A DNA stretch of 64,000 nt from a virus: IMG/VR virus record IMGVR_UViG_3300044701_000569, positions 124,001 to 188,000 of that record; one strand, given 5' to 3'. Both the position numbers and the translations under genes were made by a program. The notes beneath the pieces are model-generated. The model did not search any database, was not told the origin of the DNA, and was given only the letters and a program-made list of their open reading frames with translations. Positions within the stretch are counted from its first letter, which is position 1; every line of letters starts with the position of its first letter. Shown here one piece after another: positions 35,246 through 64,000 of this stretch.

Positions 35246-35274
35246 ATATAAAGCACTATTAGGGGTTATTACAG

Positions 35275-36768: not shown

Positions 36769-36777
36769 GGAATCAGC

Positions 36778-37719: not shown

Positions 37720-37734
37720 TAAATCCTCATTCTT

Positions 37735-37754: not shown

Positions 37755-37770
37755 CTAGGGGTTTTATAAT

Positions 37771-38868: not shown

Positions 38869-39222
38869 ATGGACGAAAGATTAGAAAAAGCTCTTAAGTT
38901 TAGCAATTACATGGTTACGCTAAACAATCAAAAACGAGTCATTAAAGAAAAGTATTTTGAAGACCTCATGTACTTTAACAGTGGTTGCCAATTTACTGTT
39001 ACGAAAGAATTAATTACGTTTGTTGGTCTGTTAATAGAACGAGGTAATGACTCTGATGTTGTACTAACTGACGATAACGACATACCTGCTAAGATATCAG
39101 ATCTAGGTTCTTTTTATGATGACATCCTTAATATTTACTTTACAGCATCAAATACGTATTACACAAAATACGAAGAACTTAAGAAAAACAGAAAAATAGA
39201 AACTCTAGTAAACCATGAATAA
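38869..39222 (+). CDS. small conserved-looking protein, unknown function
   Basis: 117 residues, mostly helical and acidic, no cysteine pairs or membrane segment. I use ATG 38869, because GGAGA (38859-38863) lies five bases upstream; a TTG at 38857 would extend it by four residues but lacks a site. The sequence runs LEKALKFSNYMVTLNNQKRV, KYFEDLMYFNSGCQFTV, then a short Asp-rich loop (VVLTDDNDIPAKISD) and a helical tail with YTKYEELKKN. It looks like a small adaptor or chaperone. It overlaps the next gene by eight bases (ATGAATAA), so it opens the coupled accessory block. No function is proposed. Confidence 0.6.
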   Translation: MDERLEKALKFSNYMVTLNNQKRVIKEKYFEDLMYFNSGCQFTVTKELITFVGLLIERGNDSDVVLTDDNDIPAKISDLGSFYDDILNIYFTASNTYYTKYEELKKNRKIETLVNHE

Positions 39223-40072
39223 TTCAAGAGGCGTTGTTTTATTTGCTAGAAACAATGGCAAACTTGATTATGTTAAACAGGCTGTATTTCTAGCAAAGAG
39301 AATTAAGAAATATCTAAATTTACCAACAACTGTAATAACAGATAGTGCTGATTATTTAGAAAAAGCATTTGATACAAATATTTTTGATAAAATTATTACA
39401 GTTGAATATTCTGAAACTAAAAATAATAGAGCTTATTTTGACGGTTCATTGTTTCACAAAACTGCTCCATTTAAAAATGACATGCGAGACGGTGTCTACA
39501 ATTGGTCACCTTACGATGAAACAATCTTAATGGATACTGATTATATCATATGCAATGATCTACTATTAAAATGTTTTGAGTCAAACAATGATTTAATGCT
39601 GTTTAAAGATTCATACGACCTAGCTCATTTTAGAAATCAAGATGAATTCAAACACATTAGTGACTTTACTATAGATTTTTATTGGGCTACAGTTGTGTTC
39701 TTCAGAAAAACAGATGAGAATGAAGTCTTTTTTGATCTTATACGCCATATTAAAAAAGAATGGAATCACTATAGACGTGTCTATCAAATAGATTCAGGAT
39801 TGTTTAGAAATGATTTTGCGTTTAGCATAGCTGTTCATATTATGAATGGATTTTCTAAAGGGTCTTTTGTAGCACCTTTGCCGGGAAAACATTACTATAC
39901 TATTGATAGAGATATTCTACAGAGTCTCGATGAAGACAGTATGTTATTTTTAGTAGAAAAGAAAGATCATTTAGGCGAATATACACTAATAAGAACTGAA
40001 AAACAAAATATTCACGTTATGAATAAGTTTAGTTTGGAACGAGTAATTGATGAGGAGATGTCTAATGGATAA
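39215..40072 (+). CDS. GT8-like nucleotide-sugar glycosyltransferase, copy 1
   Basis: 285 residues. The N-terminus RGVVLFARNNGKLDYVKQAV followed by AKRIKKYLNLPTTVITD is the nucleotide-sugar-binding start of a GT-A fold. DETILMDTDYIICN carries a DxD motif (D107, D109) that would hold the metal and the sugar donor. No membrane anchor or signal peptide is present, so it is expected in the host cytoplasm. The next gene is a paralog with the same start and the same DTD motif. The donor and acceptor cannot be read. The family call (GT8 or a close phage relative) comes from motif order; confidence that it is a glycosyltransferase is moderate to high. Confidence 0.72.
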   Translation: MNNSRGVVLFARNNGKLDYVKQAVFLAKRIKKYLNLPTTVITDSADYLEKAFDTNIFDKIITVEYSETKNNRAYFDGSLFHKTAPFKNDMRDGVYNWSPYDETILMDTDYIICNDLLLKCFESNNDLMLFKDSYDLAHFRNQDEFKHISDFTIDFYWATVVFFRKTDENEVFFDLIRHIKKEWNHYRRVYQIDSGLFRNDFAFSIAVHIMNGFSKGSFVAPLPGKHYYTIDRDILQSLDEDSMLFLVEKKDHLGEYTLIRTEKQNIHVMNKFSLERVIDEEMSNG

Positions 40073-40910
40073 GAGTAGAGGCATCTTAGTATTAGCTCAA
40101 AATTCTACAGTAGCAAATTATGTTGAACAGGCTGCACTTTTAGCTATGAGCCTTAAAGTTACAAACCCTAGCACACTTATAAGTGTAGTTACTAATGATG
40201 AAGTTCCTACAGAATATGTAAAACTGTTTGATAAGATTATTCCTATACCGTTTGAAGATGATGCAGACGCAACAGAATGGAAGATTGAAAATAGATGGAA
40301 GCTATATCACGCAACACCTTATGATCAAACAATGGTATTGGATACTGATATGCTGATCCTACAGGATATATCAAGTTGGTGGAAGTTTTTAGAAAATTAC
40401 AAATTATATTTTACAACTAAAGTTTTTACTTATAGGGGCGAAGAAGTTACTAACGACTTTTATAGAAAAACTTTTACATCTAACAATCTTCCTAATCTAT
40501 ATAGCGGACTTCATTATTTCGAAAAGAGTAAACTAGCACTAGAGTTTTATACTTGGCTTGAACTTGTTATGCAGAACTGGGAATTGTTCTACGGATTGTA
40601 TGCTAAAGAAAATTATCCTGGTAGATGCAGTGTAGATGTTAGTGCAGCAATCGTAGCTAAAATTCTTGATTGTGACTCTGAAATTACAAACAATTATGCA
40701 GAATTTCCTACTTTTACTCATATGAAACCTCATATACAGAATTGGATTAGACCTAATGAAAAATGGCAAAACTGTGTTGGAGTTTACATTAATAGAAATT
40801 GTGAAATTAAAATAGGAAATTTTTCTCAGTTAGGTATCTTACATTATACAGAAAAAGATTTTGTAACACCTGAATTAATTGAACGCTATAGGAATTACCT
40901 ACATGTCTAA
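40065..40910 (+). CDS. GT8-like nucleotide-sugar glycosyltransferase, copy 2
   Basis: 281 residues from ATG 40065, chosen because AGGAG lies seven bases upstream and the resulting N-terminus (MDKSRGILVLAQNST) lines up with copy 1 (MNNSRGVVLFARNNG). A TTG at 40047 is less likely. YDQTMVLDTDMLILQD contains the DxD motif (D93, D95). Later features are a SGLHYFEKSKLALEFYTWLE stretch and TFTHMKPHIQNWIR, with the HMKP element in the position of the conserved C-terminal His/Lys of GT8-like enzymes. It overlaps copy 1 by eight bases (ATGGATAA). The pair probably arose by tandem duplication, and they differ enough to use different substrates. Confidence 0.72.
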   Translation: MDKSRGILVLAQNSTVANYVEQAALLAMSLKVTNPSTLISVVTNDEVPTEYVKLFDKIIPIPFEDDADATEWKIENRWKLYHATPYDQTMVLDTDMLILQDISSWWKFLENYKLYFTTKVFTYRGEEVTNDFYRKTFTSNNLPNLYSGLHYFEKSKLALEFYTWLELVMQNWELFYGLYAKENYPGRCSVDVSAAIVAKILDCDSEITNNYAEFPTFTHMKPHIQNWIRPNEKWQNCVGVYINRNCEIKIGNFSQLGILHYTEKDFVTPELIERYRNYLHV

Positions 40911-42288
40911 TTTTGCCGATTTTTTAAAAACACTAAACATTGAAGTAGATGTTGTAGCCAATTCTTTTGTCTATTATGATCCTACAAACGGAAAAATAGA
41001 AAAAATAGGTAACAAATATGTCAAAGACGATTCGTTATCAATACTAGAAGTTCATCACAGCACTGTAACTGATATTATAAATGGTACTAAGAGTCCTGAT
41101 GATTTTATTGTAGAGTACGATGTAGCTTTAAAACAGTTAGCTCTAAAAGAGAAGACATACGAAGATAACAATTCTAAAATAGATACTAGCATGCATCGCT
41201 TGCCTGTAGTAAGAACAGTTTCAGATGAAGCAGGCGACAGAAGTTCTTTAATTTTTAACGGCATCTACGACGGTGTTGAAGTTTTTATGTGGATTAGCGG
41301 AACTAGATTTACAAAAGGTATGCTAGTTTGGTATAAGAATACTGTTTACAAACTGTTAGAAGATATCGAATTAGAAGAGTTTGACGAATCAAAGGCAGAC
41401 GTATTTGTAACTGATGTAGTTGTATCTAATATAAAAAGCATTAATCATTTTGTTGAATACAAAGTCATGTTTAAATCTATTTTTGAAGGTGTACACGTAG
41501 ATGTATGGTATAGAGACCTAGAACATTTACCAGGGCAGCATGTTTGGATTTACAACAATGTTTATAGAATTAGAGAACATCAATCAGCTGATACTTCTTT
41601 TAATTTAGAAAATGCAGAACTTGTTCTAAGCAATGTTTTGCTGTATGGAGATATTAACAAATCTTTAACATTTGTTTCTGTGCTTTCCCCAGGAGATAAA
41701 ATTTTAGATAATAACAGGCTGTATCTTTGCTTAGATGAAAAGCTAAACGCAAAGATGCAAGAAAAGTCAATTGTTTTTTATACTTCAAAATATCAAGGAC
41801 TGTTATATGACGAAGAATTAAAAACTCTTACAAAATTTTCCTTTACTGAAAAGCATAATAAACTTCTAGCAGACAATGAAAAAATAAAAGATACTATTGA
41901 GTTGCTTGATAATAGCACTATTGAAGATGGCGCAAAGGTATTAATTGGCAAAAATTTGTACCTAGCTACTAGATTAGAAGTACGAGATATTGATGTAAAT
42001 GTTGTTCAAAATAATTTATTAGGTTGCTGGGAAATTTACCTAGGTAAGAAGACCAAAAGAAGTCTTCAAAAAATTAGTTATGTAGGACAAGACACATTGT
42101 ATTTCAGTGTTACATCTAAGTACGATCCTAATATACTTTATAGAACAATGGAATTTTCTTTAAGCAAACTGTTAAACGATGTTTCACAAATTTATCCCTA
42201 TCAAAATGATTGGGAACGAACTAGAGAAGATGTAAGTGTATACACTTCTAAGTTTTTTGATACCTACTCTCATGAGGTACTAGAATGA
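40903..42288 (+). CDS. repeat-containing protein, possibly surface- or sugar-binding
   Basis: 461 residues from ATG 40903 (AGGAA eight bases upstream; an earlier TTG at 40879 is unlikely). The N-terminal 85 residues (NSFVYYDPTNGKIEKIGNKY, DDFIVEYDVALKQLALKEK) look like a phage structural lead-in. At least four spaced units with a Gly, a hydrophobic strand and an aromatic Tyr follow: GMLVWYKNTVYKLLED near 139, GQHVWIYNNVYRIREH near 211, GDKILDNNRLYLCLDE near 264, GAKVLIGKNLYLATRL near 343. They resemble the carbohydrate-binding-like units of the giant protein. There are no catalytic motifs. It could be an adhesin or a scaffold for the surrounding enzymes. Function unknown. Confidence 0.5.
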   Translation: MSNFADFLKTLNIEVDVVANSFVYYDPTNGKIEKIGNKYVKDDSLSILEVHHSTVTDIINGTKSPDDFIVEYDVALKQLALKEKTYEDNNSKIDTSMHRLPVVRTVSDEAGDRSSLIFNGIYDGVEVFMWISGTRFTKGMLVWYKNTVYKLLEDIELEEFDESKADVFVTDVVVSNIKSINHFVEYKVMFKSIFEGVHVDVWYRDLEHLPGQHVWIYNNVYRIREHQSADTSFNLENAELVLSNVLLYGDINKSLTFVSVLSPGDKILDNNRLYLCLDEKLNAKMQEKSIVFYTSKYQGLLYDEELKTLTKFSFTEKHNKLLADNEKIKDTIELLDNSTIEDGAKVLIGKNLYLATRLEVRDIDVNVVQNNLLGCWEIYLGKKTKRSLQKISYVGQDTLYFSVTSKYDPNILYRTMEFSLSKLLNDVSQIYPYQNDWERTREDVSVYTSKFFDTYSHEVLE

Positions 42289-43208
42289 GCCAAAAAATTA
42301 AAGTTGTTGATTATGACATCATATACCTATCCTATGATGAACCAAATGCCGAAAAAAATTATGCAGATTTGTGTAAAAAGATACCGTGGGCAAAACGTGT
42401 TCACGGTGTTAAAGGATCCGATGCAGCACACAAAGCCTGTGCTCGTCTAAGCGAAACTGATAGGTTCATCACAGTTGACGGTGACAATGTTGTTAGAGAA
42501 GAATTTTTAAATCAAGAAATTGATTTTGTTGAACACACAGATCTTACAAATTGTGTAATCAGTTGGAGCGGCCGCAATGCTATCAACGGGTTAATGTATG
42601 GTAACGGTGGATTAAAATGTTGGCCTAAAGATTTTGTTCTCAATATGAAAACACATGAAGCAGCGGATCCAACAAACAAACACGCACAGGTTGACTTTTG
42701 CTGGGATGTGCAGTATATTCAAATGAACAGTTGTTATTCAGATGTATACAACAATGCTACGCCTGCACAGGCTTGGAGAGCAGGTTTTAGAGAAGGAGTT
42801 AAACTAGCTCTTGATAGAGGAGTAAAACCTTCAAAGGAAGACTTTCTAAAAAATCATTGGCGTTGTTTGCATTGGCTTTATATTTGGACAATGGTCGGAA
42901 CTGATATTGAAAATGGTAAATGGGCAATACTAGGGGCTAGAGAGGGTCTTTATAAAACTATGCTTACTGAATGGGACTATGTAAACGTTCGTGATTTTGA
43001 ATACCTTAATGATCTTTGGGCTAAAGAATTTGAAGCAATGCAAGATTCTGACATTGATTCTAGAACTACATTTCTTGGACAAGAACTTAGTGAAAAACTA
43101 AGCATTCCTATAGGTGAAGTACTAACATCGGATCAAAGTAAATTTTTTAAAACAGTTTACGAGCATCCTGCTAGAACTGATCACCAAAGGTTTATTGAGC
43201 GCCTATGA
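42285..43208 (+). CDS. glycosyltransferase-like protein, EPNAEKN/DGD family, copy 1
   Basis: 307 residues. The N-terminus DYDIIYLSYDEPNAEKNYAD, then AKRVHGVKGSDAAHKACA, then RFITVDGDNVV (DGD at 65-67), has the order of a GT-A nucleotide-sugar domain with a DxD-type metal site. A second gene of the family lies at 56199, sharing SYxEPNAEKN, AKRVHGxKG, VDGD and NxINxLxYGxGGxK. This copy has an extra C-terminal 90 residues. Donor and acceptor are unknown. It overlaps its neighbours by only ATGA on each side. Glycosyl transfer is inferred from the fold-like motif order; no close named family is recognised by eye. Confidence 0.55.
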   Translation: MSQKIKVVDYDIIYLSYDEPNAEKNYADLCKKIPWAKRVHGVKGSDAAHKACARLSETDRFITVDGDNVVREEFLNQEIDFVEHTDLTNCVISWSGRNAINGLMYGNGGLKCWPKDFVLNMKTHEAADPTNKHAQVDFCWDVQYIQMNSCYSDVYNNATPAQAWRAGFREGVKLALDRGVKPSKEDFLKNHWRCLHWLYIWTMVGTDIENGKWAILGAREGLYKTMLTEWDYVNVRDFEYLNDLWAKEFEAMQDSDIDSRTTFLGQELSEKLSIPIGEVLTSDQSKFFKTVYEHPARTDHQRFIERL

Positions 43209-44599
43209 GCAAAAGCTATTACAATATTAATGCAGAAAATATTAGAGAAGAACTAGATAAAGTAAGTTGTTCTATGTGTCTTGCTAAATGGACACAAGTT
43301 ACTATGCATTTGCATAACGGACACACACATAGCTGTCATCATCCTGTTCCCCATAAGATTCCTCTAGAAGAACTACTAGAAAGTCCCCACGCACTACATA
43401 ATACACGTTTTAAAATTGAGCAGAGAGAAAAAATGCTTAAAGGTGAACGACCTAAAGAGTGCGACTACTGTTGGAATATAGAAGATTTAGGCAAAGACTA
43501 TCTCAGCGACAGACATTTTAAAAGCGGAGAATATTGGAGTTCAGAATACAAAGATGAAATTCTAAAAGACCCACTACGCAAGGATTTTCTTCCTACATAC
43601 CTAGAAGTTAGTTTTTCAAATGTTTGCAATTTTAGCTGCATGTATTGCAGTCCGCAGATTAGTTCAAAGTGGGTTGACGATGTTAAAAGAAATGGTCCTT
43701 ATGATCTAGGTGATTTTAAACATGCTGATTTAAGTTATTTAGATCAAAAAGGTTTAACTCCTATACCTGAAAGGGAAGACAATCCTTATATTGACGCATT
43801 TTGGGAAATATGGCCTGAGTTATATCAAAAACTTAGAGTGTTTAGAATTACTGGTGGAGAACCTTTACTAAGCAAACATACTTGGAGAATTCTAGAGTAT
43901 GTTCAAGCTAATCCTAATCCTAACATTGAAATAATTATCAATAGTAATTTGTGTGTGCAAGATAATTTTATTGATAGATTAATAAAAATAGGTAATGATC
44001 TTATTACTAATTCTAAGGTAAAAAGATTTGAAATCTACACCAGTGTTGAGAGTGAAGGACGCCAAGCTGAATATATACGTCCAGGATTAGATTACGACAA
44101 ATTTATAAACAATCTAATACGTGTGACTACTGAGATGCCAATGATTAAATGGCGTTCAAAAGTAGTAATTATGGCAACATATAATCTGTTGAGTATACCT
44201 AGATTTAGAAAACTACTTGAATGGTTATTAGAGTACAGAAAAACTCATTCAAACCCTCAATGGAAAAACATTTGGATTGATATTAGTTATCTTCGTTATC
44301 CTAGTTGGCAAACGGTTAGTCTAGCTGACGAAAGTATGCTAAAGATTATAGAATCTGATCTTGAATTTTTAAAAGCAAACGATCAAAATATTGTAGGTTG
44401 GCACGGATTTCAAGATACAGAAATTGAAAAGTTTGCTAGAATGTATAAGTATGCTGTTGAGTCAAGACAGAAGCTAAATCCTATAGAAAAAGAACGTTTT
44501 TACAATTTCTTTAACCAGCATGATCAACGCAAGGGTTTTAATTTTGTAGAGGTGTTTCCTGAGTTGGAAGAATTTTATAATGACTGTAGATCGAAGTAA
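43205..44599 (+). CDS. radical SAM protein with N-terminal auxiliary-cluster (twitch-like) domain
   Basis: 464 residues. The radical SAM core is shown by C141-xxx-C145-xx-C148 (SNVCNFSCMYC), which binds the 4Fe-4S cluster that cleaves SAM, and by TGGEP at 216-220, which contacts SAM. Unlike classic SPASM enzymes, the extra cysteines come first: C22, C25, C44, then C86 and C89 in ECDYCW, which probably bind an auxiliary cluster. I call this arrangement class A. The next gene is a close paralog, sharing HNGHTHSCHHP against AQGETHSCYHP, GERPKECDYCW and DNPYIDAFWE. The substrate is unknown; auxiliary clusters usually go with peptide or carbohydrate oxidation. Confidence 0.88.
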   Translation: MSKSYYNINAENIREELDKVSCSMCLAKWTQVTMHLHNGHTHSCHHPVPHKIPLEELLESPHALHNTRFKIEQREKMLKGERPKECDYCWNIEDLGKDYLSDRHFKSGEYWSSEYKDEILKDPLRKDFLPTYLEVSFSNVCNFSCMYCSPQISSKWVDDVKRNGPYDLGDFKHADLSYLDQKGLTPIPEREDNPYIDAFWEIWPELYQKLRVFRITGGEPLLSKHTWRILEYVQANPNPNIEIIINSNLCVQDNFIDRLIKIGNDLITNSKVKRFEIYTSVESEGRQAEYIRPGLDYDKFINNLIRVTTEMPMIKWRSKVVIMATYNLLSIPRFRKLLEWLLEYRKTHSNPQWKNIWIDISYLRYPSWQTVSLADESMLKIIESDLEFLKANDQNIVGWHGFQDTEIEKFARMYKYAVESRQKLNPIEKERFYNFFNQHDQRKGFNFVEVFPELEEFYNDCRSK

Positions 44600-45917
44600 A
44601 CTTTCAGAATACCATTTAATACATCTAAAGAAAAGTGACGAGATTTCGTCTACTTTCTGTTCTGCTAAATGGCATATGGTTACCCTGCATCTTGCACAGG
44701 GAGAAACTCATAGTTGTTACCATCCGTGGACACACAAAGTTCCCCTAGAAGAATTAAAAAATAATCCAGGTGCAATACATAATACACTCTTTAAAAAGAG
44801 TCAACGTAAACTTATGCTCAATGGAGAACGTCCTAAAGAGTGTGAATACTGCTGGCGTATGGAAGATTTAGGTAATATCAGTGATAGAATAATTCGTAAT
44901 GCTGAACCTTATGCTAAAAATGACCTAGACACTTTTAAAACATACACTGGCGACGAGGATGTCTACCCGCGCCATGTAGAAGTGAGCTTTAGTACAACCT
45001 GTAATCTTAAATGTTCTTACTGTAATCCTACAGTAAGTTCTAAGTGGCTTGAAGAAGTTAATCAATATGGCGGTTATAAAACAAGTACTGAGTTTAATGA
45101 CTATATCAAACCAGGTAAACCTCTACCATTTATATTAGATAGAGAACACAATCCTTATATTGACGCATTTTGGGAATGGCTACCGGACGCATACCCTCAT
45201 ATGCATGTCCTTCGTGTCACTGGCGGTGAGCCTCTTATGAGTAAACACACGTTTACTCTGCTGGATTACATTGCTGAAAATCCTAATCCTAAACTAGAAG
45301 TTGTAGTTAACTCTAATATGTGTGTGCCTGATAAGCTGATTGATCAAGCTATAGCAGCAGGTAAAAAGATAGTAGAACGTGTGGGTGTATTTAAGATGTT
45401 TGCAAGTCTTGACAGCGTTGGTGCTCAAGCCGAATATCAACGTTACGGTTTAAATTTTGAACAGTTTACAAAAAATGTAAGACGTTTCTTAGATGAAATC
45501 CCCAACAGCAAAGTTTCATTTACTTGCACCTTTAATGTATTCAGTGTTCCTAATGTAAAAGGCTTTATGGAATATATGTATAGTTTACATAAAGATTACG
45601 GTAAGAGAATAAACTTTGACACACCGTATTTGCGTTTTCCACCACATCAGTGTGTACAGATATTGCCAAATGAGTATGTAAAATATTTAGAGGCTGCTGA
45701 AGAATACATGATAGAAAAGTCATTTCCTCAGCTTACAATTGACAAGATTCAACGATTAAAAAGTTATATGACAAATAAAACTTTTACAGAAGAACAGTTA
45801 TCTACGTACAGAAAAGACTTTGTTATATTTGTAGACGAACACGATAAACGCAGAGGAACAAATTTCTTAGAGACTTATCCTGAGCTAAAAGAATTTTACG
45901 AGTTGTGTAATGAATGA
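44580..45917 (+). CDS. radical SAM protein, class A, close paralog of the preceding gene
   Basis: 445 residues. N-terminal cysteines C27, C46, C88 and C91, core motif C141-xxx-C145-xx-C148 (TTCNLKCSYC) and TGGEP at 214-218. Alignment with the previous protein is nearly gap-free through the core, including NPYIDAFWEWLPDAYPHMHV, SNMCVPDKLID and a C-terminal FVDEHDKRRGTNFLETYPEL against FFNQHDQRKGFNFVEVFPEL. The two genes are therefore a recent tandem duplication. The overlap with the previous gene is 20 bases, longer than most junctions in the block. One cysteine of the N-terminal pair seen in the paralog (C22) is absent. Confidence 0.88.
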   Translation: MTVDRSKLSEYHLIHLKKSDEISSTFCSAKWHMVTLHLAQGETHSCYHPWTHKVPLEELKNNPGAIHNTLFKKSQRKLMLNGERPKECEYCWRMEDLGNISDRIIRNAEPYAKNDLDTFKTYTGDEDVYPRHVEVSFSTTCNLKCSYCNPTVSSKWLEEVNQYGGYKTSTEFNDYIKPGKPLPFILDREHNPYIDAFWEWLPDAYPHMHVLRVTGGEPLMSKHTFTLLDYIAENPNPKLEVVVNSNMCVPDKLIDQAIAAGKKIVERVGVFKMFASLDSVGAQAEYQRYGLNFEQFTKNVRRFLDEIPNSKVSFTCTFNVFSVPNVKGFMEYMYSLHKDYGKRINFDTPYLRFPPHQCVQILPNEYVKYLEAAEEYMIEKSFPQLTIDKIQRLKSYMTNKTFTEEQLSTYRKDFVIFVDEHDKRRGTNFLETYPELKEFYELCNE

Positions 45918-46770
45918 AATTTACATTAAATTTTCTAATGACTCGTATATTCAGATAGAATTATTAAAAAATAATTTTGTTGATGAATGGCTAGAAGTTT
46001 TTCAAAAAACTTCTAAATCAAATATTGGAACATTTAGAATAACTCCGCTAGTAGGATTAGAGTATTGCGATAATGAAATTAATAAATCGATAGATCGTCT
46101 TAATGAAATTTTTGCCAAACTTAACTCTTTAACAGGTGTATCTGCCAACATTCCGGTGTTAACAAGACAAAATATATCAAGAAAACTGTGCAATAAAATA
46201 CATCGTATTTTTACAACTCTTGTAAATTCTCAAGGTACAAAGTATAATTTTGGTTCGTCAATTCAACTTAACGGATTAGATTTAAAAAACCATAGAGATT
46301 TAATATATGAAATAAACGACAACATTCATTATGTTGAAAAAATTTTTCATGCTAACTCAGAATTTTTAAAAAATAATCAATCAAATTATGGATTGTTAAA
46401 TTTTAAAAACAAAAAAATAGAAAAAATTAGAAAAGATTATTTTAAATTTTTAACTAATGACACACAGTATGATGTTTTTATAAACGCAAATATTTGCGGC
46501 AAAAGCTATTTAAATTGTTTTTGGGACAATGATATACCAACAAATTATGATATAAAAAACGAAGAAAGTTATTGCGCTGATTTAGAATTTTTTATTCATA
46601 AGCCATCGTTTATTGACCTTATGCAGTATACTGAGTTTACAAACTGGTTACAGAAATATAGTCTTCCAGTTAATAATATAACATCTGGCAGAATGCCTGT
46701 AGGTAAAATAAAGGACAAACTGCTTAAAGATACAGACAGCATAGAAATAAAGAATATCGAATATGCTTAA
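45910..46770 (+). CDS. unknown protein, divergent paralog of the gene at 53717
   Basis: 286 residues, very AT-rich, Asn/Lys/Ile-rich. No named domain is visible. Two blocks match the protein at 53717: a helical block with N-x-x-I-H (LIYEINDNIHYVEK against CELNGLIHKLEG), and a C-terminal order of G-K, F, E-F-F, W, G-x-V-G-x-I (ICGKSYLNCF, DLEFFIHK, NWLQKY, GRMPVGKI here; GETGKNMAHIF, LSEFFLPF, KKWCIKH, GKWEVGQI there). Both lie beside radical SAM genes, so they may be partner proteins or binding subunits. Eight-base overlaps on both sides (ATGAATGA and ATGCTTAA) tie it to them. Function unknown. Confidence 0.55.
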   Translation: MNEIYIKFSNDSYIQIELLKNNFVDEWLEVFQKTSKSNIGTFRITPLVGLEYCDNEINKSIDRLNEIFAKLNSLTGVSANIPVLTRQNISRKLCNKIHRIFTTLVNSQGTKYNFGSSIQLNGLDLKNHRDLIYEINDNIHYVEKIFHANSEFLKNNQSNYGLLNFKNKKIEKIRKDYFKFLTNDTQYDVFINANICGKSYLNCFWDNDIPTNYDIKNEESYCADLEFFIHKPSFIDLMQYTEFTNWLQKYSLPVNNITSGRMPVGKIKDKLLKDTDSIEIKNIEYA

Positions 46771-50012: not shown

Positions 50013-50013
50013 T

Positions 50014-56197: not shown

Positions 56198-56198
56198 T

Positions 56199-56882
56199 AT
56201 GTACGACATTGTATTCATAAGCTATCAAGAACCTAACGCTGAAAAAAATTGGGAAAATCTTAAGTCAAGATTTTCTACGGCTAAAAGAGTGCATGGTATA
56301 AAAGGCATACATCAAGCACACATTGCTGCGGCTAAAAAGTGTTTTACAAAGATGTTTTGGGTAGTTGATGGCGACGCAGAAATTTTAGACACTTTTGATT
56401 TTAATTATACAGTGCCTGAGTGGGAGTTAGAAACAGTACATGTTTGGCGCAGTAAAAATCCTATAAACGATTTAGTTTATGGTTATGGGGGTGTAAAACT
56501 ATTACCTCAGCGATTGACTAAAAACATGGATATATCTAAACCAGATATGACTACAAGCATATCGTCATATTTTCGAGCAATGCCTGACGTTTCAAACATT
56601 ACGGCATTCAACACAGATCCATTTAACACATGGAAAAGCGCATTTAGAGAATGTGCTAAATTAGCAAGTAAAACTATAATCAGACAAAACGAGGATGAAA
56701 CAAATGAAAGGCTGCAAATTTGGCAGAATGTTGGACAGGACAGACCTTTTGGAGAATATGCTATTCGGGGTGCTTACAGCGGCAGTAATTTTGGTAATTT
56801 ACATAGGGGTATCCCAGATGTCTTAAAACAGATAAACGACTTTGATTGGCTAGAGGAACAGTTTCGTGCAGAAAATTTCTAA
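56199..56882 (+). CDS. glycosyltransferase-like protein, EPNAEKN/DGD family, copy 2
   Basis: 227 residues, shorter than copy 1 at 42285 because the C-terminal extension is missing. Shared motifs: DIVFISYQEPNAEKNWENL, AKRVHGIKGIHQAHIAAA, VVDGDAEI (DGD at 57-59), NPINDLVYGYGGVKLLP, and TWKSAFRECAKLA against AWRAGFREGVKLA. The conserved DGD suggests a metal-bound nucleotide sugar. It starts one base after the previous stop and is followed by a 17-base overlap with a radical SAM gene, as copy 1 is also followed directly by a radical SAM gene. That repeated neighbour order suggests the two halves of the block share ancestry. Confidence 0.55.
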   Translation: MYDIVFISYQEPNAEKNWENLKSRFSTAKRVHGIKGIHQAHIAAAKKCFTKMFWVVDGDAEILDTFDFNYTVPEWELETVHVWRSKNPINDLVYGYGGVKLLPQRLTKNMDISKPDMTTSISSYFRAMPDVSNITAFNTDPFNTWKSAFRECAKLASKTIIRQNEDETNERLQIWQNVGQDRPFGEYAIRGAYSGSNFGNLHRGIPDVLKQINDFDWLEEQFRAENF

Positions 56883-57939
56883 CATACGCCAGGTTCATAT
56901 AGAACTAACAGACAAGTGCCAAGCACAATGTCCTATGTGTGCTAGAAATTTTCACGGGGGTCCTACTAGACCGTTTATAAAAAACGGTGACATTTCTATT
57001 GAACAGTTTAAGGAATGGTTTCCAAAAGCATTTTTATCTCAGCTAACAAACTTTTATAGTTGTGGGAATTATGGTGATCCTGCTTTTGCAAAAGATTGTT
57101 TAGAAATATATTCATATGTTCGAGAATGTAATCCAACTACACGTCTAGCTCTGCATACAAACGGAGGAATGAGGAATCCAGATTGGTGGAGTAAACTAGC
57201 AAAGGTTTTAGGATCTTCTGCTAACTCAGAAGTTGTCTTTGCTGTAGACGGATTTAAAGACAAGCACGAATTATATCGCAGAAATACAAATTTTGATAAA
57301 GTTATAGAAAACATGACAGCATTTATCGAAGCTGGCGGCCGAGCAAGGGTTGACAGTCTAGTATTTGCACACAACGAGCACGATGTAGAGGAACTAGAAC
57401 AATATTTAAATAATCTAGGTGTTGATAATGTAAATTTTGTTAGTACAACACGATTTTATGAAATGGATTCTTTTCCTGTACACGATTTAGACAATCGTCA
57501 TGTGTATGATTTAAAACCAGCACAGCGAATAGAATTTAAAAGAAATCCTAATAATGCTTTGGATCAATTAGTAGACCAACAGTTTAGAGATAAAGTAATT
57601 GGTGCTGCTGAAATATCACCTCTTTGTGTATCTGAACAGGGTATATACGTTGATCCTTACGGAAACATTCTGCCCTGCTGCTGGATAGGCAGTGATTATC
57701 TAGAAGAACCAATAGAAGAAATTTTGCCAATACATTATTTAAGAAATTTAAGTGTACAAAATACAAAGAACATGCTTAAAGATATAACAGTACCTAATTG
57801 TCAAGATAAGGTACTTTACAATTCGTCGGATGTTTTGTGGTCTAAACTGTCAGATTATTGGACAGGAGAAAACAAATGTATGACCTGTGTAAAGGTCTGT
57901 TCAAAGGCTTTGTATAATAGTAGAAAGAATAATGAATAA
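56866..57939 (+). CDS. radical SAM protein with C-terminal SPASM-like domain
   Basis: 357 residues, distinct from classes A and B. The start is GTG 56866, supported by AGAGGA eight bases upstream. Core motif C18-xxx-C22-xx-C25 (DKCQAQCPMC) lies close to the N-terminus. The usual GGEP is replaced by CGNYGDP (66-72), a variant known in some SPASM enzymes. The C-terminal cysteines are C254, C271, C272, C312, C338, C341 and C345 (GNILPCCWIG, KCMTCVKVC), the layout of a SPASM domain that binds auxiliary 4Fe-4S clusters. FAVDGFKDKHELYRRNTNFD is the typical DG-x-x-x-x-x-x-YR strand. SPASM proteins commonly modify peptides, but no precursor gene is visible. Confidence 0.87.
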   Translation: MQKISNIRQVHIELTDKCQAQCPMCARNFHGGPTRPFIKNGDISIEQFKEWFPKAFLSQLTNFYSCGNYGDPAFAKDCLEIYSYVRECNPTTRLALHTNGGMRNPDWWSKLAKVLGSSANSEVVFAVDGFKDKHELYRRNTNFDKVIENMTAFIEAGGRARVDSLVFAHNEHDVEELEQYLNNLGVDNVNFVSTTRFYEMDSFPVHDLDNRHVYDLKPAQRIEFKRNPNNALDQLVDQQFRDKVIGAAEISPLCVSEQGIYVDPYGNILPCCWIGSDYLEEPIEEILPIHYLRNLSVQNTKNMLKDITVPNCQDKVLYNSSDVLWSKLSDYWTGENKCMTCVKVCSKALYNSRKNNE

Positions 57940-58915
57940 TTTTCAAAATATACCCTGGCAAAACATAAAGCAGTTTGGCCAACAAACAATGCTACAGAAT
58001 CCTCTGTTCACTGTGTCTTGGATACTAGCAAGATTCTGTAATTACAACTGTTCTTATTGTTGGCCTTATGCTAGATCCAGCACTCCCGACCATCAAACTT
58101 TAGAAACTTATATTAAAACAATGGATAGTATCAAAGAGCAGGCTCGAAATAATGGATTTACAAACTTTCATTTTAGTTTTAGCGGAGGAGAACCGACTGC
58201 TTATAAACAGTTTGGAGACCTTATTGAACATTATGCAAGTGATGCATTACCTGACTATCAAAGTATACACATGACAACTAACTTATCGCCAGGTAGTAAG
58301 TGGTGGAGTAAATGGTTAGAAGCTACTAGTACATTACATAGAAAAAGTATTACAGCTAGTTTCCATGCTGAACATGCACAAGAACAGGAATTTGGAGATA
58401 AGTGTCTACAATTAATGAATGCCGGAGTATTTGTAACCATAAATCAAGTTATGGTTCCTTCGCAGTTTTATGATCTTTATGCTAGGTGCGAACGATTTGT
58501 AGAAAGAGGTATTAATGTTACTCTTAAACCGCAGAGTGATCCTACTGCTAGTTTTGTAGTTAACGGTTATACTGAAGATCAAATACATAAGATGCAGACA
58601 GGATTCCCACAGAAGTGGTTAGGTGAAGAGGTTTCACAAGTAGAACTTCAGGACTATGAGGGTAATAAATATTACATCGATCAAGCTGAACGGTTTAACG
58701 CATTTGGATTTAATAAATTTAAAGGTTGGCTTTGCAATGCAGGATACCAAGGTATTGTAATAAGAGAAAATGAAGTAAAAAGAAGTTATAGTTGTAAAGA
58801 TGTTCCGATTGGTACACTTGAAAACGGTTTTACAATTTTTGATAGCCCAACAGTATGTATTAGTGAATCGTGTGTTAGTAGCGCAGACAGCAAAATTCCT
58901 AAAAGGAGAAATTAA
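57932..58915 (+). CDS. radical SAM protein, class B, with a reduced cysteine knuckle
   Basis: 327 residues. N-terminal radical SAM core: C36-xxx-C40-xx-C43 (RFCNYNCSYC) and SGGEP at 84-88. YTEDQIHKMQTGFP marks the end of the core, as in other class B members. The C-terminal domain keeps C268 (GWLCNAGYQGIVI), C288, C309 and C314, but the last cysteine of the usual C-x-C pair is replaced (CISESCVSS). The DG turn of the siblings is also lost (RENEVKRS). The auxiliary cluster may therefore have an open coordination site or be absent. Overlaps the previous gene by eight bases (ATGAATAA). Confidence 0.84.
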   Translation: MNNFQNIPWQNIKQFGQQTMLQNPLFTVSWILARFCNYNCSYCWPYARSSTPDHQTLETYIKTMDSIKEQARNNGFTNFHFSFSGGEPTAYKQFGDLIEHYASDALPDYQSIHMTTNLSPGSKWWSKWLEATSTLHRKSITASFHAEHAQEQEFGDKCLQLMNAGVFVTINQVMVPSQFYDLYARCERFVERGINVTLKPQSDPTASFVVNGYTEDQIHKMQTGFPQKWLGEEVSQVELQDYEGNKYYIDQAERFNAFGFNKFKGWLCNAGYQGIVIRENEVKRSYSCKDVPIGTLENGFTIFDSPTVCISESCVSSADSKIPKRRN

Positions 58916-59460
58916 TGTTTAAAGAAGTAGCAATAGATTATGATTTTAGTATTTTTCTAAATGCTGATTACAATCAACACGAAGGTAGCTGTGTTAAACA
59001 CCAAGTATACGAACTAACAGACATTCATGAAAAGTTTGGAGGATTTCCTAACACTTTCTGTCTAGAAAATACTAAAATACATCAACTTTGGTGGACGGCT
59101 GATAATATAGACTTTAGCAGACTAGGCAGTCAACTTGGTATGGAGATTATTACAGTTAGTTCAATACTTCAACCTCCTGGCAATGTAATTCCGCTACACA
59201 GAGATACATTCTTTCAAATTAAAAAGAGATATCCTGACGATACTAGAAAAAAGGTTAGAGCTAATATGTATCTAGAAGATTGGAAAGTTGGACACATCAT
59301 TCAATATAGTAAAGATTCGGATTCTAACGAATGGGCCAACCATACACACTGGAAAGCTGGTCAAGGTTTATTATGGGATGAATCTATCCTTCATATTGGC
59401 GCAAACATAGGGTTACAAAACAAGTATACTCTACAGATATCCGGCTTTTTAAATGAATAA
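58915..59460 (+). CDS. 2OG-Fe(II)-type hydroxylase (aspartyl/asparaginyl hydroxylase-like)
   Basis: 181 residues. Candidate iron ligands are H95 and D97 in NVIPLHRDTFF and H160 in ESILHIGANIG, followed by K170 in a strand that would hold 2-oxoglutarate. The order H-x-D ... H ... basic residue in a double-stranded beta-helix, with RANMYLEDWKVGHIIQY between them, fits the aspartyl/asparaginyl beta-hydroxylase branch. The expected reaction is oxygen-dependent hydroxylation of a protein side chain or small molecule. It starts inside the previous stop (TAATG) with a good AAAGGAG site and overlaps a glycosyltransferase-like gene by eight bases. The substrate is unknown. Confidence 0.65.
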   Translation: MFKEVAIDYDFSIFLNADYNQHEGSCVKHQVYELTDIHEKFGGFPNTFCLENTKIHQLWWTADNIDFSRLGSQLGMEIITVSSILQPPGNVIPLHRDTFFQIKKRYPDDTRKKVRANMYLEDWKVGHIIQYSKDSDSNEWANHTHWKAGQGLLWDESILHIGANIGLQNKYTLQISGFLNE

Positions 59461-60646
59461 AATAGTTCTATGGTACGATGATTTGCATAAAAGTAACTGT
59501 AGTTATGCGGATGCTGTCTACCCTACTAGAACTATTGTCAACAAATTAAACACTAATAAAATAGAATTTTCTATAAAACATCTAGGTGATCCTGTTGATC
59601 ACTCAGATACAAATGTTTACATTATTGAATTGTTGAATGTCTATATCGACTATGACATTTTCTCTTTAATTACAGAAGAAACAAAAGAGTTACTAAGACA
59701 AAATGTAAAATTAGTACTCTATTACCCAAGAGAAGGTCATGCGTTTGATAATTGGCTATTAAACATTTATAAAAATCTTAAAAAACATAATCTGTTAACA
59801 AATAAAATTTTCTTTGCATACGGTGATAACGAATTTGTAGAAAATTATTTAACATATATCAAAGAGCACAATATTGAAGATTTTTTAATCCCAATATTGT
59901 TTGATTTTTATAAAGGTGACTATTATGAAAACGCTAATTGTTTTAACAGATCCCTTAGTCACAAAAGAAAATTTGATTATTTGTTTTATAATGGAAAGAT
60001 AAGACCACATAGGCTATACGCAGTTGCTGAATTAAAGCATCGTCAAATTTTAAATAACGGTCTAGTAAGCCTAATTGGATCAAAACATACGATAGGTCAT
60101 TATGAAATAGATGAGTGTTTAAAAATACTAACAGAAAATAATTGCTGTCATTCTTATATAAAAGAATTTGCAAACAATTGGTCATCGTTAGTTCTTGATA
60201 CTGATAATAACAATTTTTCTCAAAACGCAGTTTACAATAATGCAATTAATCATTATTCCTCAACTTTTTTTAGTGTAATAAGTGAAACAGGGTTAGTATA
60301 TAGATTTATTACAGAAAAGATTTATAAACCTATGGCAAATTTACATCCGTTTATTCTTATAGGACCACCAAATATGTTAAGTTTATTAAGATCTAAAGGA
60401 TATAAGACATTTCCTGAAATGTTTAATGAATCATATGATAGTGAATTAGATCCTGTTAAACGAATTAACTTAGTTTTAGACGAGATAGAAAAATTTGCTA
60501 ATCTACCTACTGAAGAAAAACAAGAAAAATTTAAATCTATTAAAGACAAATTAGAATTTAATAAATCTCTATATATAAAAACTGCAAGGGATTCTAAAGC
60601 TAAAGATTTTATTGATATGTTTAAAACGATAGGTAATACAAAATGA
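59453..60646 (+). CDS. GT-B-type glycosyltransferase-like protein (fucosyltransferase/exostosin-like), copy 2
   Basis: 397 residues. The C-terminal site RFITEKIYKPMANLHPFILI (284-303), then LLRSKGYKTFPEMFNESYD (311-329), matches copy 1 at 52494 and the nucleotide-sugar site of GT10/exostosin-like enzymes. YLFYNGKIRPHRLYAVAEL near 176-194 is the second shared element. The N-terminal half shares LWYDD/LWYDY at the start but little else, consistent with a different acceptor. ISETGLVYR just before the ITEK motif is a typical Glu-bearing strand in this fold. No signal peptide. It is followed by a methyltransferase with ATGA overlap. Confidence 0.68.
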   Translation: MNKIVLWYDDLHKSNCSYADAVYPTRTIVNKLNTNKIEFSIKHLGDPVDHSDTNVYIIELLNVYIDYDIFSLITEETKELLRQNVKLVLYYPREGHAFDNWLLNIYKNLKKHNLLTNKIFFAYGDNEFVENYLTYIKEHNIEDFLIPILFDFYKGDYYENANCFNRSLSHKRKFDYLFYNGKIRPHRLYAVAELKHRQILNNGLVSLIGSKHTIGHYEIDECLKILTENNCCHSYIKEFANNWSSLVLDTDNNNFSQNAVYNNAINHYSSTFFSVISETGLVYRFITEKIYKPMANLHPFILIGPPNMLSLLRSKGYKTFPEMFNESYDSELDPVKRINLVLDEIEKFANLPTEEKQEKFKSIKDKLEFNKSLYIKTARDSKAKDFIDMFKTIGNTK

Positions 60647-61251
60647 AAGTTGAGATTGAAGATGTTTTATTTTGGATGGATGCCATACGTAATAGCGAAG
60701 ATAGGTATCGAACTCTTGAAAGTTTTTGGAAAGGTCAAATTCGAAGTAAAGTATGGTTAATTAATAATTTAGATTTATTAGTTAATGCTTATCCTAAATC
60801 TATTGTAATTCATGGGGGATGGAATGGAGTTCTTGCTAGTTTACTTTTTAATAGTAAAATAATGAATATTTCTCATATTACCAGTGTTGATATTGATACA
60901 GTCTGCGAAGAAACTGCAAGAACAGTAAATAAACGTCAAGAAATTGAAGGTAGGTTTAAAGCAGTTACAGCTGATATGTGTACATATCAATATGAACAAG
61001 TACCAGACATTGTTATTAATACTAGTTGCGAGCATATAACACAGGAGCAATATGAGGAATGGTTAAATAATGTTCCAGAACAAACTCTTATTGTTTTACA
61101 AAGTAATAATTACTTTGAGTTAGAAGAACATATAAGATGTAGTATTGATGTAGAAGATTTTAAAAATATGTCTAAAATAAATGTTATGTACAGCGGTGAA
61201 TTTGAAACACCAAAGTATAAAAGATTCATGCTAATAGGAAAAAAGAAATGA
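60643..61251 (+). CDS. class I SAM-dependent methyltransferase-like protein
   Basis: 202 residues. SIVIHGGWNGVLASLLF (53-69) fits motif I (Gly-rich SAM loop), ITSVDIDTVCEETAR (79-93) gives the acidic residue for the ribose, AVTADM (107-112) is motif III-like, and PDIVINTSCEHI (121-132) is motif IV. This order is that of a Rossmann methyltransferase. The INTSCEHI motif, with Cys-Glu-His, could take part in catalysis or metal binding. The acceptor is unknown; the neighbours suggest a sugar or a modified product of the radical SAM enzymes. Overlaps are ATGA on both sides. Confidence 0.75.
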   Translation: MKVEIEDVLFWMDAIRNSEDRYRTLESFWKGQIRSKVWLINNLDLLVNAYPKSIVIHGGWNGVLASLLFNSKIMNISHITSVDIDTVCEETARTVNKRQEIEGRFKAVTADMCTYQYEQVPDIVINTSCEHITQEQYEEWLNNVPEQTLIVLQSNNYFELEEHIRCSIDVEDFKNMSKINVMYSGEFETPKYKRFMLIGKKK

Positions 61252-62660
61252 CTGATAAATTTTGGTGTAATTCAGGTAACAAGCAGTTAGAAAAATACCA
61301 ACAAGAAATTGAAACAAAGTCCGGTACACCAACCTTTTGCGTATTACCATGGATACATTTTGCTACACGCCCTAATGGAGATATGAGACTTTGCTGTTCA
61401 GCTAACGCTAGCGGCGCCGGCCAAGATCATGAAGTTGGGTTGGTAAAAATGGAACACGGTCGTCCTGCAAACTTTGGTCGTGAAACTCCTATGCAAGCAT
61501 GGAACAACGACTATATGAAAAGTGTTAGAACAACTATGATAAAAGGTGAAATACCATCAAGTTGTTCTAAGTGTTTTAGAGAAGAAGAAAAAGGCGTAGT
61601 TAGTAAACGTGTTTGGGAAACAGGCACTTGGATGCTAGATGGTATTGATCTTAAGGAATTAATTGAAAATACAGACGAAGATGGTATTGTACCAGAACGT
61701 TTGCAGTATCTTGATTTAAGACTAGGACACACTTGTAATTTAAAATGTGTTATGTGTAGTCCTCATGATAGTAGTAGATGGGTAGATGACCATAAAAAGA
61801 TTTATCCTTTATTTCAAAATGACTCGCTTAAAAAGCAAATGAGTTGGGACGCGGGATCTTTTAATAATTATTGGTATGAAAATCCTGTATTTTGGGAACA
61901 GATGTATGCACAGATACCCTATCTAAAGCAGGTTTACTTTGCAGGCGGCGAACCTTTAATGATAAAGGAACACAAGAATCTTTTAAAAGAAATTGTACGC
62001 CAAGGTTATGCTGATAAGATTTTAATTAGATACAATTCTAACGGATTATTACTAGACGAAGAAACATTAGAGTTATGGAAAAATTTTAAGAAAGTAAAAT
62101 TTGCTGTGAGTATTGATGATATTACTGACAGAAACTATTACATTAGATATCCGTCTGATTGGGATAGATTAGAAAAGAATATGCATATTCTTGATAATAC
62201 GCCTAGCAACGTACAAGTAAGTATTGCTACAGCTATTCAAATCCTAAACATAAAAACTCTACCTGAATTAGCAAAGTGGAAAATTACACAGAATTTTAAA
62301 AAGATAAATTTTGAAAATGTTTATGAAGGTATACAAGCCGGCGGCGGAATAGTAAACATGCACTTATTGTATATACCTACTTTTTTAAGTATACGATGCT
62401 TGCCTAAAGAGGACAAGCAAGAAGTAAGAAAAATATTTGAAGATTTTAGATTATGGCTTCTAGAAAACTATACACAAGATTCAGACTTTTGGAATGTAAA
62501 TCCGTATGGGTGGAAGCGTTGGCAGGCTGTTTTAGATTTTATGGACGGTGAAGATCATACACACGAACTACCGGCATTTAAAGAATACATACATAAACTA
62601 GATTCTATTAGAAACACAGATTTTAAAACTATTTTTCCGTTATTGAGTCACTTAGTATGA
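61248..62660 (+). CDS. radical SAM protein, class A
   Basis: 470 residues, the longest radical SAM protein here. N-terminal cysteines C31, C49 and C50 (FCVLPWIHFATRPNGDMRLC) and C106/C109 (SCSKCFREEEKG). A further C7 precedes this domain. Core motif C163-xxx-C167-xx-C170 (HTCNLKCVMC), AGGEP at 232-236, then FAVSIDDITDRNYYIRYP. It shares LDLRLG-x-TCNLKCVMC with 51290. An insertion of about 20 residues between C50 and the RET element (ANASGAGQDHEVG) distinguishes it. It is paired with a class B gene by an ATGA overlap, as 44580/46763 and 47716/49029 lie together elsewhere in the block. Confidence 0.88.
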   Translation: MTDKFWCNSGNKQLEKYQQEIETKSGTPTFCVLPWIHFATRPNGDMRLCCSANASGAGQDHEVGLVKMEHGRPANFGRETPMQAWNNDYMKSVRTTMIKGEIPSSCSKCFREEEKGVVSKRVWETGTWMLDGIDLKELIENTDEDGIVPERLQYLDLRLGHTCNLKCVMCSPHDSSRWVDDHKKIYPLFQNDSLKKQMSWDAGSFNNYWYENPVFWEQMYAQIPYLKQVYFAGGEPLMIKEHKNLLKEIVRQGYADKILIRYNSNGLLLDEETLELWKNFKKVKFAVSIDDITDRNYYIRYPSDWDRLEKNMHILDNTPSNVQVSIATAIQILNIKTLPELAKWKITQNFKKINFENVYEGIQAGGGIVNMHLLYIPTFLSIRCLPKEDKQEVRKIFEDFRLWLLENYTQDSDFWNVNPYGWKRWQAVLDFMDGEDHTHELPAFKEYIHKLDSIRNTDFKTIFPLLSHLV

Positions 62661-63655
62661 AACAACTAGCAAGAGTTATTACTACACAAGATCCTACTCT
62701 TTTAGATGTGAGATTTTGGCCTACCGATATTTGTAACTTTAGTTGTAACTATTGTTTTCCTGGCAGTGTTCTTAACAAGTATCGTTATCCTAAAAATGTC
62801 AACACTGTAATAAAGAATTTTAGAATACTGTTTGATGCATATATGAAACTGCATAACAAGAAAAAGTTTAAGATAAACATAGTAGGGGGAGGTGAACCTA
62901 CATTATGGCCGCATCTCTCAGAGTTCTGTCAAGGCATTAAAGAAACACATCCAGTTGAAATACAATTGACTTCTAACGGCAGTAGAACTCTTAGATGGTG
63001 GGAAGAAAATAGTTTATATGTTGATAAAGTAGTATTAAGTTGTCATTACAAAGATGTTGACATTAATAATTTTATTCAAGTAGCTGATTATATTTTTGGA
63101 AGAGGTACAGACATAGGTGCTCTAATGCTTATGGATGCTACGGCTTGGGATACATGTGTTGAATTAATTGAACAAATGAGAAGCAGTAAACATCCTTGGA
63201 TTATACAAGCAAAAGAAGTTGTAGATGCTCCAGGATATGATATAAGAAACTATACAGCAGAACAGCTCAGTTATTTTAAACAACCTTTTAAACGTGTTCC
63301 GGATACTAATTGGATTATTAATAACATACATAGATTTAGAGTACACGAAAGTGTATCGCTTTATGATGATAATTCTGTAGAGCTAGCACTACCTAACTAT
63401 TACATAGTTAATAAATTAAATCAATGGAAGGGTTGGAATTGTAATGTGGCTCTTGAAAATCTAGTTATTACTTATGACGGTACAGTTACAGGTAGTTGTC
63501 AAGAACCTGTGTTTTCTAATTCTAATTTAAATATGTTTGCAGAAGATTTTGAAGAAAAATTTAGCGAAGAATCGCTAAGTTTAAAAACATTAATTTGTCC
63601 AAGAATGAATTGTAGCTGCCAACCAGATACGCACATTACAAAATGGAAGTCTTAG
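62657..63655 (+). CDS. radical SAM protein, class B
   Basis: 332 residues. Core motif C26-xxx-C30-xx-C33 (DICNFSCNYC) and GGGEP at 77-81, followed by IQLTSNGSRTLRWWEE, which is close to CMTSNGSRSIDWWQR of 46763. YTAEQLSYFKQPFK ends the core. The knuckle domain has C262 (GWNCNVALENLVITYDG), C281, C314, C319 and C321 (ICPRMNCSC). A 12-15 residue acidic insertion (EDFEEKFSEE) lies before the last cysteines. It is the last plus-strand gene; its final 20 bases overlap the 3' end of a convergent homolog on the other strand. Confidence 0.87.
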   Translation: MKQLARVITTQDPTLLDVRFWPTDICNFSCNYCFPGSVLNKYRYPKNVNTVIKNFRILFDAYMKLHNKKKFKINIVGGGEPTLWPHLSEFCQGIKETHPVEIQLTSNGSRTLRWWEENSLYVDKVVLSCHYKDVDINNFIQVADYIFGRGTDIGALMLMDATAWDTCVELIEQMRSSKHPWIIQAKEVVDAPGYDIRNYTAEQLSYFKQPFKRVPDTNWIINNIHRFRVHESVSLYDDNSVELALPNYYIVNKLNQWKGWNCNVALENLVITYDGTVTGSCQEPVFSNSNLNMFAEDFEEKFSEESLSLKTLICPRMNCSCQPDTHITKWKS

Positions 63656-64000
63656 TCAGCGGAATGTCTGCTGCACAAGTACACCAATTTCTATCACAAA
63701 TTATTTCTGATGCTGGAATACGAAAATCTCCTTTATAGATATTTCCTAAACTACCGCCAACCCTGCAAGTAGCTCGGTGTACTTCACCATCCCAGTTAAT
63801 CATTAGACTTTCAATACCTGCACTGCATTTCCAATCTTTAAATTTATTCATATGCAGTTTTATTATATCATTAGCATGATATAGATCTTTGTTGTCAACT
63901 ATGCAATTTTCTTTTGCTGTTGCGTTGTTTTCTAATAGATATTTTAAGTCATTAGGTTGATATCTCATGTCGTCGAACCAATCGTGATCACCTTCGGTCC
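63636..64000 (-). CDS. radical SAM protein, class B, C-terminal part only (continues beyond the window)
   Basis: The minus-strand frame is open from the right edge to a TAA at 63638-63636, giving about 120 residues without the core. The visible part begins with HDWFDDMRYQPNDLKYLLEN, which corresponds to the YTEQQL element of class B, then a linker and the knuckle domain: WKCSAGIESLMINWDGEVHR, a second Cys, GSLGNIYKGDF, and ICDRNWCTC. An ATG at 63968 lies inside the frame but is not the likely start, because coding similarity continues upstream of it. The radical SAM motif itself should lie outside the window. It is convergent with the gene at 62657 and marks a strand switch in the block. Confidence 0.82.
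   Translation of the reverse strand, partial: TEGDHDWFDDMRYQPNDLKYLLENNATAKENCIVDNKDLYHANDIIKLHMNKFKDWKCSAGIESLMINWDGEVHRATCRVGGSLGNIYKGDFRIPASEIICDRNWCTCAADIPLTKTSIL

Follow-up and report, generated by a model that had tools for sequence, protein, structure and literature searches.

The locus described here is a cassette of radical S-adenosylmethionine (radical SAM) genes and glycan-type enzymes in IMG/VR virus record IMGVR_UViG_3300044701_000569. The window, i.e. the whole stretch of 64,000 nucleotides that was analysed, corresponds to bases 124001-188000 of this 357,559-base record; G000 denotes the whole record and L014 the piece of it that overlaps the right edge of the window and continues beyond it. 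Genes are named by their start in the window (Table 1). The cassette extends from position 38869 to about 72311 (L014:10311), is 33,443 bp long and 99.9% coding, and its neighbouring genes mostly overlap, by 4-30 bases. An earlier sequence-only reading had put its size at 25 kb, but the right arm reaches beyond the window. This arm is mostly convergent and encodes the last of the radical SAM proteins, a PP-loop protein, an Asp/Asn beta-hydroxylase-family protein (Asp_Arg_Hydrox) and several uncharacterised proteins. A gene with an Mtd_N tropism-determinant domain is found on the right flank. On the left, a fibre-type block (30659-38763), collinear in related contigs L184-L192, ends 105 bp before the cassette on the same strand. 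Misassembly of bacterial DNA onto a phage, a concern of the sequence-only reading, was rejected because phage fibre genes flank both ends; the left junction recurs in independent contigs. The major capsid protein (gp23) shares 65-70% identity with its counterparts in jumbo T4-like phages that infect Sinorhizobium, Vibrio, Pseudomonas or enterobacteria.

In the gene-by-gene profile searches which that reading had proposed, all 11 complete radical SAM genes of the window, in the range 43205-63655, scored above the cut-off of PF04055 (Pfam Radical_SAM; gene starts 43205, 44580, 46763, 47716, 49014, 50002, 51290, 56866, 57932, 61248 and 62657). Exactly one CxxxCxxC motif is present in each of the 11 proteins, along with GGEP in 10 of them and GNYGDP in 56866. 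The twelfth gene, already noticed as entering from the right, straddles the window edge and is whole at L014:1636-2526 (G000 187636-188526), and a thirteenth (L014:2519-3850) lies just beyond it. Over the entire record PF04055 gave 13 matches, all within 167.6-189.4 kb, and no Pfam-level radical SAM gene was found outside the cassette. Six proteins of the window and L014:2519-3850, seven of the thirteen in all, also passed the NCBIfam model NF033640 (N_Twi_rSAM), whose curated cut-off is 170 bits scored over the full profile. Since their scores (299-398 bits) exceed it by 129-228 bits, chance is not an issue as far as these profile matches are concerned. The model represents a cysteine-rich twitch domain N-terminal to the radical SAM domain, and C17, C35, C81, C84 and C139/C143/C146 are invariant in all seven proteins. 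The subfamily that it defines is one of sequence, for which the model table gives no function, and the other six proteins, which do not reach the cut-off, fall outside it; these are shorter, and their cysteine knuckle is mostly C-terminal but N-terminal in 49014.

Radical SAM enzymes with SPASM or twitch domains are best known as peptide maturases, and partial matches to many such NCBIfam models were obtained, as would be expected if the enzymes matured a ribosomal peptide or small molecule (RiPP-like) directed against competitors or the host. None of the peptide-maturase models attained its cut-off, however, and no export or peptidase gene was recognised. Because the cassette is almost entirely coding with overlapping genes, there is no room for a precursor gene; no free small open reading frame was found, which bears out the earlier remark that a precursor peptide is absent. 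With no precursor gene beside a maturase, a RiPP cluster was rejected as the principal explanation, and peptide or small-molecule maturation is considered improbable. Viperin-type defence (pVip) was also rejected, the matches being partial, confined to the radical SAM core and well short of the 180 bits that NCBIfam sets as cut-off.

With RS2 (57932) as query, 338 encoding stretches were found in IMG/VR, and the viral locus comparisons were made on the best 80 of these. RS2 identity in the 80 loci is 73-79%, one near-identical contig excepted. Synteny analysis, another step suggested by the sequence-only reading, revealed by gene clustering a core of five genes, DGD (56199), RS1 (56866), RS2, MT (60643) and RS3 (61248), all present in 35 of 35 spanning loci and in few arrangements. 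Gaps of more than 75 nt occur at only 8 of 573 core junctions. The genes inserted between core genes include a sugar-nucleotide dehydrogenase with an epimerase-type protein (UGD+SDR), a hydroxylase with a putative transferase, and further radical SAM genes; loci of at least 19 kb carry a median of 8 and a maximum of 12 radical SAM genes. The dN/dS ratio is 0.07-0.19 in core and accessory genes alike, and the core is, by this sequence-based estimate, under purifying selection. RS2, DGD and its paralogue DGD' (42285) gave zero matches across 50,697 cultured-phage records, nor did the fibre-block proteins 36778 and 37771 match any cultured phage.

The region after the fibre genes had been regarded as a place for variable cargo. 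This holds for the insertions, which do vary, but not for the core and the left boundary, which are conserved. If the genes were unrelated auxiliary cargo in a hypervariable region, each acting alone, the differences in many accessory genes between loci would be accounted for, and T4-like phages do keep variable cargo by their fibre genes (PMC7029224). The occurrence of the five-gene core in every spanning locus, the uniform purifying selection, and the co-occurrence of unlinked core genes and the gene fusions in bacteria (below) largely contradict this explanation, which is very improbable.

A bacterial counterpart of the core was found on chromosomes of Bdellovibrionota, bacteria of the predatory type. 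An exact-pattern search for RS2 in bacterial genomes gave no matches; an alignment search with RS3 led to some twenty contigs of Bdellovibrionota, several of them hundreds of kilobases in length, where core genes are clustered in shuffled order. Identities to the phage proteins are 44-50% for RS3, 47-54% for RS2, mostly 33-38% for RS1, 36-50% for DGD/DGD' and 31-38% for MT. Among 291 Bdellovibrionota genomes, strong matches to RS2, DGD and MT were present in 17 each; RS2 and MT occur together in 16 (p 3e-24) and RS2 and DGD in 14 (p 2e-18; hypergeometric test, with p values that ignore shared ancestry). The co-occurring genes are on separate contigs in several of these genomes. RS1 and DGD are fused in one Bdellovibrionota protein of 635 aa, and in another of 1220 aa DGD is fused to two Glycos_transf_2 (family-2 glycosyltransferase) domains. 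Core genes or MT adjoin family-2 glycosyltransferases and/or FAD enzymes in L111, L195 and L198, one of the FAD enzymes being weakly similar to UDP-galactopyranose mutase. In a literature search covering mostly papers outside subscription, no description of the core, its Bdellovibrionota counterpart or the fusions was found.

With the viral or possibly viral contigs L098 and L129 set aside, the phage and bacterial groups are separate in the RS2 and RS3 trees at about 45-54% identity, with weak support for the separating branches in RS2. Therefore the sharing does not look recent, and a recent transfer from Bdellovibrionota to phage is not supported. Contig L129 (PBPT01000016.1, 335 kb), filed as Neomarinimicrobiota, was treated as viral; it is, to judge from its proteins, very probably a jumbo phage contig, since the gp23 in its assembly is 89% identical to that of the present phage and its DGD groups among phages. 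Other features of the bacterial genomes were recorded separately. L117, L118 and L124 represent another dense radical SAM cluster on Bdellovibrionota chromosomes, which includes Asp/Asn-hydroxylase-like genes resembling the right arm of the phage cassette; in L117, some ten N-twitch-like genes occupy 21 kb. A B12-binding radical SAM protein (L112:5069-6613) lies near the core in a Bdellovibrionota-type genome.

One Bdellovibrionales locus, L116, situated after pheS-pheT, repeats the phage order: fibre-type protein, 38869, GT8, GT8, short protein, DGD' and N-twitch radical SAM. The same chromosome encodes DGD' and DGD in a single 516-aa protein (L116:11430-12980). The locus bears on the possibility that the cassette modifies the phage's own fibre-block proteins (36778/37771), the GT8 and DGD proteins adding sugars and the radical SAM enzymes altering sugars or peptide. 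The 105-bp junction on the same strand agrees with this, as does the order of fibre-type gene, 38869 homologue and GT8 pair, which is kept in related phages and in L116; L116 alone among the 291 genomes has a fibre-type gene and a homologue of 38869, which lie side by side. RS2, on the other hand, is found in sixteen other Bdellovibrionota genomes without a fibre-type homologue. The fibre protein is therefore not the general substrate of the core, and 37771 was rejected as a universal substrate (1 of 291 genomes has it). The neighbourhood of the radical SAM and GT8 genes in jumbo phage K566, close to PagP and LpxC genes, also speaks against fibre modification, which is possible but doubtful.

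The fold of the core proteins other than the radical SAM enzymes was addressed with AlphaFold models and Foldseek. For 56199 the top matches were nearly all GT-A glycosyltransferases (E 3.6e-5), and D57 and D59, forming a DxD-type motif, are invariant in DGD proteins. On the model of 56199, the DGD proteins have a GT-A fold, and glycosyltransferase activity is predicted. MT matched DnrK and also nicotianamine synthase; its model indicates a class I methyltransferase fold, with SAM binding and methyl transfer predicted. Two of the four genes called glycosyltransferase-like, 39215 and 40047, proved GT8-like, whereas 52494 and 59453 show the likeness at motif level only; the best PDB match of 52494, a fucosyltransferase, was non-significant (E 0.55). 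The SGNH-like (54544/55367) and 2-oxoglutarate (2OG) hydroxylase (58915) labels are unconfirmed, resting on motifs. No Pfam match was obtained for 52494, 59453, 54544, 55367 or 58915, and PDB profile searches with the DGD, MT, PP-loop, FucT-like, SGNH-like and 2OG-like proteins gave nothing significant. The PP-loop protein (L014:3774-4517) has SGG.DS and CxxCxxC motifs; identity as QueC found no support in Pfam (no QueC match) or in PDB profiles.

Cultured Vibrio phage K566, a jumbo phage, offers a related arrangement. Its N-twitch-like radical SAM genes adjoin two GT8 genes, with annotated PagP and LpxC-family (Pfam) genes nearby. The radical SAM region of K566 and K567 is only 20-28% identical to the present one, has fewer radical SAM genes and gave no RS2 or DGD match.

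The GT-A fold, the fusions, the glycan neighbours in bacteria, K566 and a sugar-nucleotide operon of the phage together favour a glycan or glycoconjugate, and the conserved core, co-occurrence and fusions support a multi-step pathway. Of the earlier proposal of a multi-step pathway acting on a virion protein, a host glycan or a small molecule, the multi-step part is thus supported and the glycan is preferred. These results suggest, with somewhat better than even confidence, that the cassette encodes a pathway active during infection, in which a surface glycan or glycoconjugate is put together and chemically modified. The activities of the enzymes, the sequence of their steps, the substrate and product, and the timing, host and benefit are all inferred in the following scheme. 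The conserved core would make a shared scaffold, DGD transferring a sugar and RS1-RS3 with the methyltransferase acting on this sugar or on its acceptor through C-H chemistry and methylation. The radical SAM reaction may be epimerisation, deoxygenation, C-methylation or another. Strain-specific decorations would be added by the exchangeable genes (extra radical SAM enzymes, GT8-like and other transferases, sugar-nucleotide dehydrogenase/epimerase pairs, hydroxylases), while IscU, an A-type carrier and a ferredoxin could be the source of Fe-S clusters and perhaps of electrons. Most probably, the product would be placed on the host envelope and change recognition by phages or predators. The envelope is moderately favoured over the fibre as the product site because the other RS2-bearing Bdellovibrionota are without the fibre protein and K566 points to the envelope.

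Several points weigh against a surface glycan. No cassette enzyme has a characterised close homologue, and neither a lipid-carrier glycosyltransferase nor a flippase was recognised among the cassette genes. DGD resembles its structural matches only moderately (TM about 0.4), glycan neighbours are absent from some bacterial core loci (L099), and the co-occurrence test, besides disregarding shared ancestry, includes many metagenome-assembled genomes. The direct junction with the fibre genes also fits virion modification, the chief alternative. A wider proposal is speculative: the five-gene core, common to Bdellovibrionota and a large group of uncultured jumbo phages, may produce a surface glycan of a class not recognised before, with sugars modified chiefly by radical SAM enzymes, and the phages would either infect these bacteria or be their competitors and remodel this glycan.

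Phage O-antigen conversion by gtr-type cassettes alters the host surface and its recognition. The outcome proposed here is alike, but no GtrA/GtrB/GtrC-like genes were recognised and radical SAM chemistry dominates. To our knowledge, few of the glycan pathways described so far include radical SAM enzymes, and those that do usually have one or two. Here, thirteen are encoded in one operon-like block of a phage, and the core recurs in hundreds of environmental viral contigs. An abundant yet unstudied viral chemistry is thereby made testable, with K566 as a cultured system carrying a related radical SAM/GT8 cluster; phages and Bdellovibrionota are linked via a shared pathway, and new GT-A and methyltransferase-fold families are offered.

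Radical SAM-rich T4-like phages are already on record. The marine T4-like genome TARA_ERS488813_N000010 (183 kb) has 12 radical SAM genes and an Fe-S A-type carrier gene (PMC5332604); compared by description only, it resembles this phage in both respects, and its radical SAM genes were interpreted solely as Fe-S metabolism (PMC5332604). Pelagimyophages, which infect SAR11, have between VrlC and gp14 an island termed the host recognition cluster, which carries tail fibres, glycosyltransferases that are mostly GT8, and radical SAM cassettes; host surface modification and avoidance of coinfection were suggested for it (PMC7029224). Both these phages and the present one are T4-like, with fibre genes, GT8-type transferases and radical SAM cassettes in a large island; the pelagimyophage genomes measure 132-164 kb as against 357 kb here, where gp23 is nearest to jumbo T4-like phages of other hosts. 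The portion of the pelagimyophage description that was covered contains neither a conserved radical SAM/DGD/methyltransferase core nor a bacterial counterpart (PMC7029224).

Table 1. Features of the cassette and its left border within the window.
Feature	Position	Strand	Remarks
Two paralogous fibre-block proteins (36778-37719, 37771-38763)	36778-38763	+	GYGQ and RHFFN.GG motifs; left border of cassette
Small conserved protein, first cassette gene	38869-39222	+	Accompanies fibre-type gene and GT8 pair in phages and L116
Two GT8-like glycosyltransferases (39215-40072, 40047-40910)	39215-40910	+	Glycogenin profile match, E 1.8e-4; conserved DxD; no Pfam match
Uncharacterised protein	40879-42288	+	Equivalent position in related phages
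DGD', longer paralogue of 56199	42285-43208	+	33% identity to 56199; in phages and Bdellovibrionota
Two N-twitch radical SAM proteins (43205-44599, 44580-45917)	43205-45917	+	NF033640 314.7 and 337.5 bits; PF04055
Uncharacterised protein upstream of class B radical SAM gene	45910-46770	+	No family match
Class B radical SAM, C-terminal Cys knuckle	46763-47719	+	PF04055 5e-11
N-twitch radical SAM	47716-49032	+	NF033640 316.1 bits
Radical SAM with N-terminal knuckle-type Cys domain	49014-50012	+	PF04055 3.7e-13; weak SPASM at residues 39-75
Two N-twitch radical SAM proteins (50002-51297, 51290-52504)	50002-52504	+	NF033640 343.2 and 299.5 bits
Putative glycosyltransferase	52494-53720	+	FucT-like C-terminal motif only; no Pfam match; unconfirmed
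Uncharacterised protein	53717-54547	+	No family match
Two GDSF-motif SGNH-like proteins (54544-55374, 55367-56197)	54544-56197	+	Motif only; no Pfam, PHROG or PDB support
Core: DGD, GT-A-fold protein (model)	56199-56882	+	AlphaFold pLDDT 92; Foldseek
Core: RS1, radical SAM	56866-57939	+	PF04055 4.9e-12
Core: RS2, radical SAM, most conserved gene	57932-58915	+	PF04055; 73-79% identity in relatives
Putative 2OG-type hydroxylase, optional insert	58915-59460	+	Motif only; in 11/80 loci
Putative glycosyltransferase, optional insert	59453-60646	+	Motif only
Core: MT, methyltransferase-fold protein (model)	60643-61251	+	AlphaFold pLDDT 89; Foldseek E 1.8e-10 to DnrK
Core: RS3, N-twitch radical SAM	61248-62660	+	NF033640 397.5 bits
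Class B radical SAM, often directly after RS3	62657-63655	+	PF04055 7.8e-9
C-terminal part of twelfth radical SAM gene	63636-64000	-	Edge fragment 63636-63998; complete in L014:1636-2526

Further genes of the phage lie outside the cassette. L017:7647-8042, L017:14343-14690 and G000:C1:266414-266716 encode IscU (NifU_N, E 2e-55), a ferredoxin of DUF3470 type and an Fe-S carrier of A type; that they provide Fe-S clusters for the thirteen radical SAM enzymes is plausible. The sugar-nucleotide operon (L015:9273-11902; G000 215273-217902) comprises an NAD epimerase, a UDP-glucose/GDP-mannose dehydrogenase, a PMM-family phosphomannomutase and a cytidylyltransferase. Farther to the right of the cassette, a divergent QueE-like frame without a Pfam match (L014:19082-19954), FolE (GTP cyclohydrolase I; L015:328-1026) and a transglycosylase (DpdA/TGT)-like gene (L015:6974-8533) suggest 7-deazaguanine DNA modification, FolE being the only one of the three confirmed by Pfam. 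A fatty acid desaturase gene is present at L017:5437-6141, with a like frame in the related phage contig (L129:13248-14000). Upstream of the fibre genes, a single reading frame of 5131 aa (window 15256-30651) encodes a giant, presumably structural protein.

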